Origin: Gemmatimonadaceae bacterium
GTDB taxonomy: Bacteria > Gemmatimonadota > Gemmatimonadetes > Gemmatimonadales > Gemmatimonadaceae
Direction: 5' to 3'
Assembly (NCBI GenBank): GCA_025358925.1
Contig: JANYHT010000039.1
Span: forward strand, 1 to 64,000
Length of the DNA: 64,000 nucleotides
Shown here: positions 32,321-39,143 of the stretch, in pieces
Layout of the letters: each line of letters begins with the position of its first letter
Position numbering within the stretch: position 1 is the first letter of the stretch
The notes under the pieces: generated by a model
What the model was told of the DNA's origin: nothing
What the model saw: the letters and a program-made list of their open reading frames with translations, nothing else
The model's database searches: none
Translations under genes and position numbers: made by a program

Positions 32321-32576
32321 CGAGGCGTAGCGAGTCGCGAAAACGCGGACTTCGTGAAAGAATTCACAAAGGCTTTTAGGAAATTAGCGGTAGGACCGCC
32401 GGCTCTCAACGGCTAACAGGTGCGTGTGGTTCGCGCGTCCCCGCAAATGTCGAATTTCAGCGGTTTTCATGCGGATCGTCGCGCGTTGCTTGGCACTCGT
32501 CAGCGCGCGCCTCTACCTTACCGCGCGGCTCAGCCGTACGACGACGGCGCTCGTCCACCTCAATTCGACCACGCTC
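32321..32576. other. Divergent intergenic region between nuoA and dcd
   Basis: A 256-base stretch between oppositely oriented genes, so it must hold both starts of transcription. Seen: a small inverted repeat GTGAA-N4-TTCAC at 32354-32367, a hairpin GCGGT-AGG-ACCGC within a wider TTAGC/GCTAA pair, and a weak plus-strand promoter-like pair TTGGCA (32490) and TACCTT (32514) 18 bases apart. None is strong. The dcd frame stays open through much of it, but not with family-like sequence. Confidence 0.4.
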
Positions 32577-33131
32577 ATGGGGCTCTGCTCCGACCGCTGG
32601 ATTACGCGCATGGCGCGCGAACATGGCATGATTGAACCGTTCGAAGATCGCCAAGTGCGTGAGGGCGTCATCTCGTACGGCGTGAGTTCATACGGTTATG
32701 ACATGCGAGTGGCGCGCGAGTTCAAGATCTTCACGAACGTATTGAGTTCGATCGTGGATCCGAAGGCGTTCGACCCGCGAAGCTTCGTCGAGTTTGAAGG
32801 CGACTTCTGTATCGTGCCGCCGAATTCCTTCGCGTTAGCGCGCAGTGTCGAATACTTCCGCATTCCCCGTAACGTGCTCACTCTCACCGTAGGCAAGAGC
32901 ACGTACGCTCGCTGTGGCATCATCACAAACGTCACGCCATTCGAACCCGAATGGGAAGGATATGTAACGCTCGAGATTTCGAACACGACGCCGCTACCGG
33001 CGAAGATTTACGCGAACGAGGGCATTGCCCAAGTGGTGTTCTTCACGGGCGATGAGCCGCCCGAAATCAGCTACGGCGACAAGAAGGGGAAGTACCAAGG
33101 GCAGCATGGCGTGACGCTGCCACGCATCTAA
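32577..33131 (+). CDS. dcd: dCTP deaminase
   Basis: Dcd deaminates dCTP to feed dUTP and dTMP synthesis. The 184-residue product from [13 protein letters not shown] has [12 protein letters not shown], the nucleotide-binding [10 protein letters not shown] and the catalytic-glutamate segment [20 protein letters not shown], followed by [13 protein letters not shown]. The frame extends 51 codons upstream, but homologues start at this methionine. Whether it is the mono- or bifunctional (dUMP-forming) form is not resolved. It is the only complete plus-strand gene here and converges on the end of the mdh-sdh operon with nine bases between stops. Confidence 0.94.
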
Positions 33132-33140
33132 CAACGAGCG

Positions 33141-33794
33141 TTAGGCCGTCGCGTAGACGTAGCGGCAGCCGAGATCCTGCGCGCGTTGCAACGCCACGAC
33201 CATCGCGGGCACCACTTCTATACCCGGCAACAGATTCGCCCGCGCTTCGTCGGCGAACGCCGTGCGTGCGGCCGGGTCAGCGCGTGCGGGCTCGGGCAGA
33301 AAGCGCGAGCCGGACGCGCGGAGTGAATTATTGCACGCGAGTAGGATGGCGCCACGCGCGATAAGCGCGGCAACGAGATCCGTGCCCTGAGGTCCGTTCG
33401 GGTTTTTTGTACCCGTCATCAGCATCGTTTCGGCGATGGGATACTTTGCCCACATCGCATCGTTGAACAGCAGCCCGATGGAGCGGCCGTTCAAGCCAAC
33501 AACAACACCGCTGTCTCCGTCGCGCAATCCGTAACTGTTTTTTTGCGTGTCGAGAAACGTACGCGCCCAACCGATGGCCAGTCCGTCTGCCGCGAGATGC
33601 GAATGAAACACAACGCGATGCGCGCCAGCGGCTGTGAGTCGTTGCATCCACGGCTCGGGCTCGCCGACGTTGCGCGGCGCCATCATGGCATCAGCGCGTC
33701 GCGCAACACTCGACAAGCCAAGCCCAGCACCAACGGAGACCAAGCGAGCGAGGAACGTGCGGCGAGGTGATGAACTAGACGTCTCGTCGATCAT
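33141..33794 (-). CDS. Tat-exported DsrE-like protein
   Basis: A 217-residue protein. The N terminus has a twin-arginine signal: SPRRTFLARL followed by a hydrophobic stretch to about residue 30. The mature part looks like the DsrE/DsrF-like fold (COG1416 type): HRVVFHSHLAADGLAIGWARTF is split by ordinary residues, then GVVVGLNGRSIGLLF, ILLACNNSLRASG with a cysteine at the usual place, and GIEVVPAMVVALQRAQDLG. Such proteins often handle sulfur. The ATG overlaps the end of the TsdA-like gene (ATGA), so the pair is translationally coupled. The family call is by pattern; substrate unknown. Confidence 0.72.
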   Translation of the reverse strand: MIDETSSSSPRRTFLARLVSVGAGLGLSSVARRADAMMAPRNVGEPEPWMQRLTAAGAHRVVFHSHLAADGLAIGWARTFLDTQKNSYGLRDGDSGVVVGLNGRSIGLLFNDAMWAKYPIAETMLMTGTKNPNGPQGTDLVAALIARGAILLACNNSLRASGSRFLPEPARADPAARTAFADEARANLLPGIEVVPAMVVALQRAQDLGCRYVYATA

Positions 33795-34654
33795 GGCGTA
33801 CGCACCGTGGCGGGAGCAATTGGAGAAACGCGACGCGGAAGTACGGCGCGTGTTGGAGGCAACAGTTTTCCAGCGTCGCGCGCCCCGTTCGTGGCATAGG
33901 CCACGTCCATCGGAGGATCGCCTTTCGGCCAATCACGCTCTTTCCCGGGATGATCTTGACGCGGCTTTGCGAGCACGTACGCAGCCACGTCAGCTGCGTC
34001 TTGCGCGGTGAGTTGCGTGGCCTTGTCATACGGCATATTCGCGCGCACAAACGTTGCTAAGACCGTTTGACGCGAGAGCCCCGCCCCAATGGAATAACTA
34101 CGCGCACCCCACACGGCCGGTGCGAGTTTGGCGATCCCGCGTCCGTCAACTGCGTGACAACGCACACACGTTGTCGCGTAGACGCGTCCGCCGTGCCGCA
34201 CGTTACCCACCAACTTCACGGTATCTGGCGCGGCGGGTCGTGGCAGCGCGCCGAGCGAGTCGAGGTACGCGAGAATGTCTCGCATCGCGGAGCCATTTTC
34301 AGGGAGGGCGCGTCCAGCAAGACTTCGCGTCACGCATTCGTTCACGCGTTGCGTCAATGTTTCTTCGGCGCCGCGACGCGAACGATATTTCGGATATCTA
34401 ACTGCAGTATTGAGCCACGGCATCGCGTTGGCGCGCGTGCCTTCGTCCAAATGACAACTCGTACAACGCAGTCGATTTCCGCTGTATTGTGGCAACGAAT
34501 CACGAAAGGCGTTCAGCAGCGCTCTGCCGCGCGCTGTATTCCCGACCTGCGTCGTTGCGGGCTGCGCCCGCGCTCCACGCGCCGCGCTCAGAACCAAACA
34601 TGCGCAAAGCACCAGCACCCCCGCTGCTTTGCACACGCCAACTGTCACACGCAT
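33791..34654 (-). CDS. tsdA: TsdA-like dihaem cytochrome c (probable thiosulfate dehydrogenase/tetrathionate reductase)
   Basis: A 287-residue exported dihaem cytochrome with a Sec signal peptide (cleavage probably after RGARA, residue 30). Haem sites are CTSCH (64-68) and CVRCH (163-167). Between them YPKYRSRRG, TLTQRVNEC (C107) and RSLAGRALP match TsdA, where such a cysteine is the axial ligand of the active haem; M207 in ANMPYD is a candidate ligand of the second haem. TsdA joins two thiosulfates to tetrathionate and can work in reverse. Only four bases separate it from sdhB. The activity is inferred from motifs; other cytochrome c families lack this combination. Confidence 0.8.
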   Translation of the reverse strand: MRVTVGVCKAAGVLVLCACLVLSAARGARAQPATTQVGNTARGRALLNAFRDSLPQYSGNRLRCTSCHLDEGTRANAMPWLNTAVRYPKYRSRRGAEETLTQRVNECVTRSLAGRALPENGSAMRDILAYLDSLGALPRPAAPDTVKLVGNVRHGGRVYATTCVRCHAVDGRGIAKLAPAVWGARSYSIGAGLSRQTVLATFVRANMPYDKATQLTAQDAADVAAYVLAKPRQDHPGKERDWPKGDPPMDVAYATNGARDAGKLLPPTRAVLPRRVSPIAPATVRTP

Positions 34655-34658
34655 TTCG

Positions 34659-35432
34659 CTATGCCGAGGCGGTTGCCGCGCGTGGCTCGCGACGCTTGGC
34701 CGTGGCCAGCAAGAAGTCGCGATTCATCTGCTTAATAACGTCGATGCTGATTTCCTTCGGACATGCTTCCATGCATTCACCCACGAGTGTGCAGTGGCCG
34801 AACCCTTCCAAATCCATCTGTTCAACCATGGCGAGGGCACGCTTGTCGCGCTCCGGCTGTCCCTGCGGCAGTGCACCGAGATGGGAGATCTTTGCGCCCG
34901 TGAACAACGATGCCGAAGCATTGGGACACGCTGCAACGCACGCGCCGCATCCAATACACGCGGCCGCATCCATCGCCCCTTCGACGATGTCTTTGCCGAT
35001 CAAAATCTCGTTTGCGTCGCGTGCGCCGCCCGTGTTCGTGGATACAAAACCACCGGCCTGAATGATGCGATCAAACGCGGACCGATTGGTCACAAGATCC
35101 TTGATGACCGGAAACGACGAGGCACGCCACGGCTCAACGGTGATGCTCTCGCCGTCGTTGAACGCCCGCATATGCAACTGACACGTGGCGGTACCTGCCC
35201 CCGGTCCGTGCGCTTGTCCGTTGATCATCATCGAACACGAGCCGCAAATGCCTTCGCGACAATCATGCGCGAACGCGACCGGCTCTTTCCCGGCAACCGT
35301 CAGTTGTTCGTTGAGCATGTCGAACATTTCGAGGAACGACATGTCGTTACTAACGCCGTCGACCGTATACGGCTCGAGGCTGCCCTTCGTCGTGGCGTTG
35401 GACTGACGCCAGACCTTCAGTGTGAGCTTCAT
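34659..35432 (-). CDS. sdhB: Succinate dehydrogenase/fumarate reductase iron-sulfur subunit
   Basis: SdhB passes electrons from the flavoprotein to the membrane quinone. The 257-residue protein has the 2Fe-2S motif CREGICGSC, the 4Fe-4S motif [12 protein letters not shown] and the third set [12 protein letters not shown]. The ATG overlaps the sdhA stop by one base (TAATG). It is followed after four bases by a TsdA-like cytochrome gene, an unusual extension of the operon. Confidence 0.97.
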
Positions 35433-37345
35433 TACTTGTAGCTCCGCGTGGAGAGGTGCACGTTTTCATACACCAGCGGCTCCTTGTTCAAAATGGGTGC
35501 GGCGTTCGCACCAGCGTACTCCCACGCAGCAACGTAGGCAAAATGTTCGTCATCACGCTTGGCTTCACCCGCATCCTGATACTCCACGCGGAAATGACCA
35601 CCGCACGACTCTTCACGATCCAACGCATCTCGGCACATTAATTCGCCCAGCTCCAGAAAATCTGCAACGCGCCCTGCACGTTCCAGCGACTGATTGAGCG
35701 ACTCTCCAGTGCCGGGCACGTTCACGTTGGTCCAAAACTCCTCGCGCAATTTTGGCAAGAGCTCAAGGGCCGTCGTTAGACCGTCGCGCGTGCGCGCCAT
35801 CCCACAATAGTCCCAGATAATTTTACCGAGCTCTCTGTGAATAGAATCGACGGTACGTGTACCACGAATGTCTAACAGCTTTTGCTGCTGCGCATGCACG
35901 TCTGCTTCGGCAGCCGCGAAGGCCGGATGCGTGTTATCAACAGGCGCGAGCTTCGTACTCGCGATGTAATTGCCGATGGTGTACGGCAATACAAAGTATC
36001 CGTCCGCCAAGCCCTGCATCAACGCAGAAGCACCGAGCCTATTCGCGCCGTGATCGGAGAAATTGGCCTCACCGATGCAGTGCAGGCCCGGAATGGTGGT
36101 CATCAAGTTGTAATCCACCCATAGGCCACCCATCGTGTAATGCACCGCAGGATAAATGCGCATGGGCATTTCATACGGATTTTCATCCGTGATCCGTTGA
36201 TACATGTCAAACAAATTGCCGTATCGTTCCGCGATCGTTTTTTGTCCTAAGCGCTTGATCGCATCAGCAAAATCGAGATACACGCCGAGCCCACCGGGAC
36301 CCACCCCGCGACCATCATCACACGCTTCCTTCGCAGCTCTCGACGCGATGTCTCGCGGCGCCAGATTGCCAAAGCTCGGATATTTGCGCTCGAGAAAATA
36401 GTCGCGCTCCGTTTCCGGAATCTGCGACGGTTTGCGCGCATCGCCCTTCGCCAACGGCACCCACACGCGGCCGTCATTCCGCAATGACTCGGACATCAAC
36501 GTGAGTTTCGACTGATGATCGCCGCTCACGGGAATGCACGTCGGATGAATTTGCGTGTAACACGGATTCGCAAATGCCGCGCCCTTCTTATGCGCGCGCC
36601 AAATTGCGGAGGCATTACAAAACTTTGCGTTGGTGCTGAGATAGAACACGTTGCTGTAACCACCTGTCGCGAGCACGACCGCGTCCGCCGCGTGCGACGT
36701 GATCTTCCCGGTGAGCAAATTGCGCGTGACAATACCGCGCGCATACCCGTCCACCACGACCAAGTCTAACATTTCCTCAAACGTGTGCATGTCGACCGCA
36801 CCAAGGCCAATCTGCCGCTCGAGCGACTGATACGCGCCGAGCAACAATTGCTGTCCGGTTTGCCCACGCGCGTAAAAGGTGCGCGAGACTTGCGCCCCGC
36901 CAAACGAACGATTGGTCAGCAACCCACCGTACTCGCGCGCAAAGGGTACGCCCTGCGCGACGCACTGATCGATGATACTGACTGACACTTGCGCGAGCCG
37001 ATACACGTTGGCCTCGCGCGCGCGAAAATCGCCACCCTTAATCGTGTCGTAAAACAAACGACGCACACTATCGCCGTCGTTCTGATAATTCTTTGCAGCG
37101 TTGATGCCACCCTGCGCGGCGATCGAATGCGCGCGACGCGGCGAATCGTGATATACGAAGCACGATACCTTGTAGCCGAGCTCCGCCATCGTCGCCGTTG
37201 CGGATGCGCCAGCCAATCCCGCACCGACCACAATGACATGGTGACGACGTTTGTTGGCCGGATTGACGAGCTTCATCGAAAACCGATGCTCATCCCACTT
37301 GGCTTCAAGCGGCCCATCAGGAATATTCGCGTTCAGATTAAGCAT
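35432..37345 (-). CDS. sdhA: Succinate dehydrogenase/fumarate reductase flavoprotein subunit
   Basis: SdhA oxidises succinate with covalently bound FAD. The 637-residue protein has a GAGLAGASA dinucleotide fold, the FAD-attachment region [23 protein letters not shown] and [18 protein letters not shown]. Length and the HPTC segment match the non-classical B. subtilis/Bacteroidetes-type enzyme rather than the proteobacterial four-subunit type. Starts one base after the sdhC stop. Confidence 0.97.
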
Positions 37346-37346
37346 G

Positions 37347-38129
37347 TCAGTGCATCTCGCGCGAGCGGAGTGATGCGGTCGGAGCTGGTTGTGCGGTCAT
37401 CGTTGTGCCTGTAACGGTCGGCTCGGCAACTGGTGGCGCGTCTGGAAACAGGCCGCCCAGGGTGGCAAGCGGAATGAGCATGAAACCAGCCGCGACGATC
37501 ACGGCTAGCACGAGCGCTAACGTACGTTTCAATGGCAAAGTGGCGGGACGCGCTATACCGAGCGTGCGCACCGCAGCCCACGTACCGTGATACAGGTGCA
37601 GCGCCAACGCCAACATGGCGAGGACGTAAAAAGCTGCAATCAACGGATTCGATAAACCACTGAGCACGTTGTGATACGGGTCCAGCTCGCGGTAATCGGG
37701 ATGCACCACGCCGAGCGTGAGCTGCAGCAAATGGAAGACAATGAACACCAACAACAACACTCCGCCCCAGCGAATCGTCCGCGCGGCAAATGTCGTGACT
37801 TGCGGACGGCGCTGCACGTAATCCTGCGATCGGGCCGCACGTGATAGCATCGTGAGCTGGTAGGCTGAAATCGCGTGCAGCACCACGCTGATGAGCAGCA
37901 CGGCGCGTACGACGTAAAGCAGCGGCATGCTGGTGCGCAGGAGGAGCGCATAGTGGTGCATGGCATCCTGCCCCTTAAACATGAGCAAGTTGCCCGACAT
38001 GTGACCGATGACGAAGAGGATCCCGACAATCCCCGTCACCGCCATCACGATCTTTTTTCCGATCGTGCTCTGCCAAAAGTGCTTGAGAGCGTACATAAGC
38101 GGGTTGTAAGAAAGAGCCGGCGCCGTCAT
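37347..38129 (-). CDS. sdhC: Succinate dehydrogenase cytochrome b558 subunit
   Basis: A 260-residue membrane anchor with five hydrophobic segments and well spaced histidines in [38 protein letters not shown] and LHLYHGTWA, suited to bind two haem b groups. It is the single-subunit anchor of type B succinate:quinone reductases, which use menaquinone, in line with the mqn genes in this window. A TTG at 38132 precedes the chosen ATG. About 35 C-terminal residues are polar and rich in Ala, Pro and Thr. Confidence 0.93.
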
Positions 38130-38156
38130 CAAAGCGACTGCGCCGACCCGGTTAAA

Positions 38157-39143
<987 letters not shown>

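Follow-up and report, generated by a model that had tools for sequence, protein, structure and literature searches.

Two overlapping genes in the genome of a Gemmatimonadaceae bacterium may encode a two-component periplasmic module for thiosulfate and tetrathionate, in which the dihaem cytochrome c TsdA is accompanied by a protein of the DsrE fold that is distantly related to the haem-free thiosulfate dehydrogenase (TSD) of acidophiles; the joint chemistry is read from sequence, and we give this reading about an even chance of being right. The genes lie in a stretch of 64,000 nucleotides (hereafter the window) that represents one contig (JANYHT010000039.1) of a 4.0-Mb genome. Among the genomes of the same family is that of Gemmatirosa kalamazoonensis (G110), whose contig C3 is 100% identical to NZ_CP007129, which places the host in Gemmatimonadaceae, phylum Gemmatimonadota. 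On the minus strand, tsdA (33791–34654, 287 amino acids), recognized from its open reading frame, profile and structure matches and a tree, runs into the gene for a protein exported by twin-arginine translocation (Tat) (33141–33794, minus strand, 217 amino acids), recognized from its open reading frame, its fold and a comparison with TSD profiles; the tsdA stop codon and the start codon of the Tat protein gene share an ATGA at 33791–33794. A first-pass annotation of the window had described this overlap, placed the start of tsdA four bases after sdhB and named C107 as a candidate haem ligand. These observations and their coordinates were reproduced, whilst the interpretation was supported in part and needs correction as to the nature of the partner, the recurrence of the pair and the link to sdh.

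The cytochrome as a TsdA

The cytochrome carries a Sec-type signal peptide and matches the Pfam families PF21342 (SoxA-TsdA) and Cytochrom_C. Its closest matches in the Protein Data Bank (PDB) are to TsdA of Allochromatium vinosum (AvTsdA; 4wqc/4v2k, E 4.5e-34), and the Marichromatium purpuratum TsdBA fusion (5lo9) matches at 1.7e-23. Haem 1 is bound by a CTSCH motif (C64–H68) with C107 as its candidate ligand, as had been supposed: this residue aligns with AvTsdA Cys96, an essential haem-1 ligand that is covalently modified by substrate (PMC6879331). Haem 2 has a CVRCH motif (C163–H167) and the candidate ligand M207, which aligns with AvTsdA Met209, and the preceding N206 replaces AvTsdA Lys208. 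Both CXXCH motifs, together with R103, C107, S111 and M207, are invariant among 19 Gemmatimonadota relatives. In a maximum-likelihood tree, SoxA is split off by a 100/100 branch and 18 of the 19 Gemmatimonadota proteins form one clade (98/96) beside AvTsdA (93/88); the SoxA model gave no match over its cut-off in 31 relatives, and a SoxA or generic cytochrome c is ruled out on these two grounds. Phylogeny, which the first-pass annotation had named as the place where its identification could fail, thus sets the cytochrome inside TsdA. Judged by its sequence, the protein is a TsdA with all catalytic and ligand residues, and its predicted activity is the interconversion of thiosulfate and tetrathionate.

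It shares with the A. vinosum (structures 4wq7 and 4v2k) and Campylobacter jejuni enzymes two haems c, a His/Cys haem 1, the conserved Arg/Ser/Met, its position on the tree and a periplasmic location. It differs from A. vinosum TsdA in that Asn, not Lys, precedes the haem-2 Met, a feature shared with C. jejuni, and from both in that a TSD-related DsrE-fold gene overlaps its own. A second periplasmic protein is likewise paired with TsdA in tsdAB systems and in the M. purpuratum TsdBA fusion (5lo9), but TsdB is a haem protein that accepts electrons, whereas no TsdB lies beside tsdA in the window and the adjoining Tat protein is without a CXXCH motif.

The haem-2 surroundings bear on the possibility that the pair works in reverse, as a tetrathionate reductase or as a scavenger in sulfur stress under low oxygen. 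The residue preceding M207 is Asn in 15 of the 19 Gemmatimonadota TsdA sequences, giving the Asn-Met pair of C. jejuni TsdA, a tetrathionate reductase in which the haem-2 surroundings affect directionality (PMC5146829), and not the Lys-Met of A. vinosum; moreover, Gemmatimonas groenlandica showed no autotrophic growth when thiosulfate was the electron donor (PMC7844134). The exchange N254K, however, did not switch the direction of the C. jejuni enzyme (PMC5146829), so that the residue does not set the direction; Asn also precedes the haem-2 Met in 34 of 35 TSD-linked TsdAs of Pseudomonadota, and G. groenlandica is an aerobe (PMC7844134). Because N254K left the direction unconverted, the haem-2 Asn was rejected as a diagnostic character and no direction is drawn from it; operation in reverse is considered unlikely.

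Other TsdA proteins were met in the survey. The genus also has a second TsdA type, behind which lies a SoxC-like molybdopterin oxidoreductase (Oxidored_molyb and Mo-co_dimer; L076 2916–5249 and L078 4228–7214), and at L078 a monohaem cytochrome also follows; lone soxCD genes in Gemmatimonadetes have been remarked upon as unexplained (PMC6704655). One Gemmatimonadota TsdA (L079, G030:C14, 4193–5035) falls in the TsdBA-like clade of Pseudomonadota TSD-linked cytochromes, apart from the other Gemmatimonadota TsdAs.

The Tat-exported partner: fold and kinship

The Tat export claimed for the 217-residue protein is borne out by its RRxFL motif: TIGR01409 (Tat signal) matches 6 of 28 relatives and the RR is invariant in the family alignment (A6). 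The protein is predicted to have a DsrE/DsrF fold. An AF2 model built from 28 relatives reached a pLDDT of 87.9 (38 only from the single sequence), and the ten top structures found with it by VIA-align were all of the DsrE/DsrF, YchN or TusBCD type (Z 8.2–14.6, the next being 5.3), the best of them 2pd2 (Z 14.6, 1.5 A over 107 residues). Foldseek returned the DsrE/DsrF fold (E 2.7e-5, prob 1.00), and the DsrE-like chains 1l1s and 2pd2 ranked first in a sequence profile search, with 1l1s aligned at the cysteine motif. A Pfam search gave no family match, PF02635 (DsrE) included. The predicted structure thus falls within the DsrE fold that had been claimed from the sequence. Fold and cysteine position are as in the DsrE/DsrF/YchN/TusBCD proteins (PF02635; 2pd2, 1l1s, 1jx7, 2hy5), from which the window protein differs in its Tat export, the missing Pfam DsrE match, an insert before the Cys strand and a location outside any dsr/tus/hdr cluster. 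W49, W115, C154 and P196 are invariant in the family. TsdA was also seen near ordinary DsrE-family genes, amid sulfur-handling genes, in Lysinibacillus and Hymenobacter plasmids (L221 10–4729, L222 3815–6816).

The sole NCBIfam match of the protein is to the thiosulfate dehydrogenase model NF052225, with an E of 8.6e-11 and a score of 41.6 bits where the cut-off is 300; this model matched 26 of the 28 relatives, which otherwise matched only Tat-type signal models; at E 1e-20, NF052225 found nothing in 150 Gemmatimonadota genomes. The type member of NF052225 (ThioSDhTetH) is AFE_0042 of Acidithiobacillus ferrooxidans, which, according to Kikumoto 2013 as cited in PMC6335251, is a haem-free Tat protein of ~25 kDa that forms tetrathionate and, by the same account, failed to reduce either ubiquinone or horse cytochrome c; its Tat annotation is given in PMC2754497, and a 2024 review draws the electron acceptor of TSD as '?' (PMC10859504). 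When the window family was compared with 19 true TSDs by hhalign, residues 51–215, the DsrE domain, were aligned with a probability of 99.2% and an E of 1.1e-19. All 74 true TSDs compared have the cysteine aligned with C154, and 56 of these proteins contain no other Cys. The protein shares with Acidithiobacillus TSD its Tat export, a DsrE-like domain alignable over its length, the invariant Cys/Trp/Pro and a redox partner gene nearby; unlike it, the window protein has only ~20–25% identity, is missing the TSD N-terminal region (RRRxFxTVPM) and has neither SBP_bac_11 nor DoxDA in its gene block. No DoxD was found in the window's own genome. Since it lies in a clade separate from the true TSDs (100/100) and falls below the NF052225 cut-off, the protein is filed as TSD-related and not as TSD: by its sequence, it is a distant TSD relative, for which a joint or tetrathionate-forming activity is predicted. 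TSD itself, being homologous to the Gemmatimonadota Tat family, would also have the DsrE fold; a profile of true TSDs found no DsrE chain among PDB sequences, so that this fold assignment runs through the Gemmatimonadota relatives only.

Public plasmid records name true TSDs (L104–L108) either 'transcriptional initiation protein Tat' or hypothetical protein. The former label predominated among the matches obtained when plasmids were searched with a relative, and the five checked scored 374–418 bits for NF052225; with query P0002 the plasmid search gave no match.

This kinship changes what can be made of the sulfur-transfer role first proposed for the partner: the DsrE fold stands, but in place of a simple sulfur carrier we find a distant relative of the acidophile haem-free TSD. 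A plain carrier of the cytoplasmic DsrE type was set aside, as the fold fits but the nearest characterized relative is TSD. The protein might still be a sulfur carrier or caretaker that strips sulfane or thiosulfonate from TsdA Cys107, or from tetrathionate, for other periplasmic proteins. DsrE-family proteins are carriers (PMC4175335), adducts of AvTsdA Cys96 have been reported (PMC6879331), and a paralogue in the same genome is grouped with genes for cytochrome b561, a molybdopterin oxidoreductase, a DsbD-like protein and a redoxin. Its sequence kinship, however, is to TSD, an oxidoreductase, and not to DsrE3A/TusA systems, and the window block holds no obvious acceptor protein; we judge a caretaker role improbable.

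Recurrence of the pair in Gemmatimonadota

The tsdA/Tat-protein pair recurs across the phylum more than chance would give. Among 200 Gemmatimonadota genomes that were 90% complete or more, and in counts that ignore phylogeny, TsdA (E ≤ 1e-15) was found in 96 genomes, and 95 of these 96, but no others, had the partner family (E ≤ 1e-8); one genome had TsdA only and 104 had neither. Two genera (g5 and g25) each hold double-positive and double-negative genomes. The two genes lie within 3 kb of each other in at least 36 genomes, against ~0.4 expected (~0.0036 per genome), again counted without regard to phylogeny. The first-pass remark that this is not a standard pairing therefore needs dividing: the pairing recurs within Gemmatimonadota and, where the partner is a true TSD, among Pseudomonadota as well, but it is undescribed in the literature searched. 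In two members of the genus, tsdA and the partner gene are separated by ~1.6–3.4 kb of other DNA (L101 3925–8641, L102 4153–7059). In the window's own genome, the paralogue mentioned above (L082, G000:C19, 3024–7589) follows the cytochrome b561 and molybdopterin oxidoreductase genes, with the DsbD-like and redoxin genes upstream.

Several points weigh against a working partnership of the two proteins. AvTsdA functions without any such partner. Beyond the blindness of the counts to phylogeny, most genomes outside the genus that carry tsdA have no partner gene next to it, the partner often being unlinked, and extra copies of the partner family lie away from tsdA (for example L061 and L062 in the same genome). 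One genome (G006) has an intact tsdA beside a partner that has lost ~55 codons inside its domain (L027 2313–2762), and another (G007) has tsdA with no partner beside it. The low NF052225 score of the Tat protein and the long branch between it and the true TSDs count on the same side.

Candidate redox partners of true TSDs

An uneven sample of 84 true TSD loci was examined, of which 79 came from a scan of named genomes, Acidithiobacillus included (chosen as the best among 254 matches obtained with two peptide patterns), and five from plasmids. A TsdA-like cytochrome lies within 5 kb in 34 of the 84 loci and DoxD in 23, and in none do both occur; the remaining loci, a part of which lie on short contigs, lack both over the same 5 kb. 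The lack of overlap has a P of 4e-7 on the assumption of independent loci, which these are not. In Kozakia the gene order is TSD, SBP_bac_11, DoxDA, the same as in A. ferrooxidans. The TSD-linked cytochromes occupy three places on the TsdA tree, with most of those from Pseudomonadota in the 5lo9 clade (a Bradyrhizobium cytochrome matches 5lo9 at 3.4e-88), and the TsdA/DoxD label switches ~10 times on the TSD tree, at least five times by well supported branches. This alternation looks like an exchange of redox partners, and the pairing with TsdA supplies a candidate electron acceptor for TSD.

The same pattern bears on the idea that the window encodes two independent enzymes for one reaction, TsdA with haem and a haem-free TSD-like enzyme, which are coexpressed but do not cooperate and deliver electrons to separate acceptors. 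The activity is known from homologues of both (TsdA, and AFE_0042 per PMC6335251), and the A. ferrooxidans TSD was characterized as a single 25-kDa gene product with no haem partner. Set against this, the alternation of TsdA-like cytochromes and DoxD beside true TSDs, never both at once, suggests partner exchange over duplicated function, and independent action is held to be distinctly unlikely.

A possible reaction path

In the favoured two-component module, a sulfur group would be bound on C154 of the Tat protein as a Cys-S-thiosulfonate. The precedent for this role is DsrE3A, which forms such an adduct with tetrathionate and then hands it on (PMC4175335). The group would be exchanged between C154 and the Cys107/haem-1 site of TsdA, and the electrons released as two S2O3(2-) become S4O6(2-) would pass from haem 1 to haem 2 (His/Met), then to a cytochrome c and an oxidase. 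In TSD-carrying Pseudomonadota, the electron-accepting role may be filled by the TsdA-like cytochrome or by DoxDA.

Gene layout and the link to sdh and mdh

The pair ends a minus-strand block with the order mdh (38157–39086, the first gene), sdhC (37347–38132, start codon uncertain), sdhA (35432–37345), sdhB (34659–35432), tsdA and the Tat protein gene. It is met by the convergent, plus-strand dcd (32424–33131), a dCTP deaminase-type gene whose N-terminus is over-extended in the list of open reading frames. A scan for promoters and terminators gave signals at chance level.

The first-pass annotation tied tsdA to mdh-sdhCAB, and the tight coupling to sdhB is real; a general functional meaning is not borne out, as the linkage is confined to one genus. 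A functional tie, in which electrons from thiosulfate are regulated together with the TCA (tricarboxylic acid) cycle and complex II, could draw on the 4-bp spacing between sdhB and tsdA in the window and on the sdhA-sdhB-tsdA(-Tat gene) block, which 26 of the genus's 30 genomes keep; mdh-sdhC precedes it in every case in which the retrieved sequence extended far enough. In most relatives, however, the sdhB–tsdA gap is wider, sdhB was never found near tsdA in 20 loci from outside the genus, and sdhB adjoins dcd with no tsdA between them, often with nuoA beyond, in 15 or more other Gemmatimonadaceae loci. Most simply, the tsdA pair was inserted once between sdhB and dcd in one genus, dcd marking the 3' border of the insertion; loss of the pair from this site in all other genera is less parsimonious. 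Because the link is found in one genus only and looks like an insertion, it merits little functional weight, and the case for a tie to complex II is weak, other genera having sdhB-dcd without an intervening tsdA; we regard such a tie as very unlikely.

Novelty and meaning

The component parts are of known kinds and their combination is the new element. In the open-access literature, no paper was found that joins TSD with the DsrE fold or with TsdA (weak evidence of absence), none that assigns the acidophile-type TSD a fold and no description of a thiosulfate/tetrathionate module in Gemmatimonadota. The locus ties TSD to the DsrE fold, singles out one cysteine as the candidate catalytic residue and suggests two alternatives as the redox partner of TSD, a TsdA-like cytochrome or DoxDA. 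A wider and more tentative proposal, which we think possible but short of probable, is that TsdA and TSD, so far taken as unrelated alternatives, together make up a single system in many bacteria: thiosulfate would be activated by a DsrE-fold protein at one cysteine, and the electrons would be taken off by a dihaem cytochrome or, in other cases, by DoxDA. For the phylum, the locus points to a thiosulfate/tetrathionate module that is widespread in Gemmatimonadota, and the failure of G. groenlandica to grow as an autotroph on thiosulfate makes it likelier that the module assists organotrophic growth than that it sustains autotrophy.
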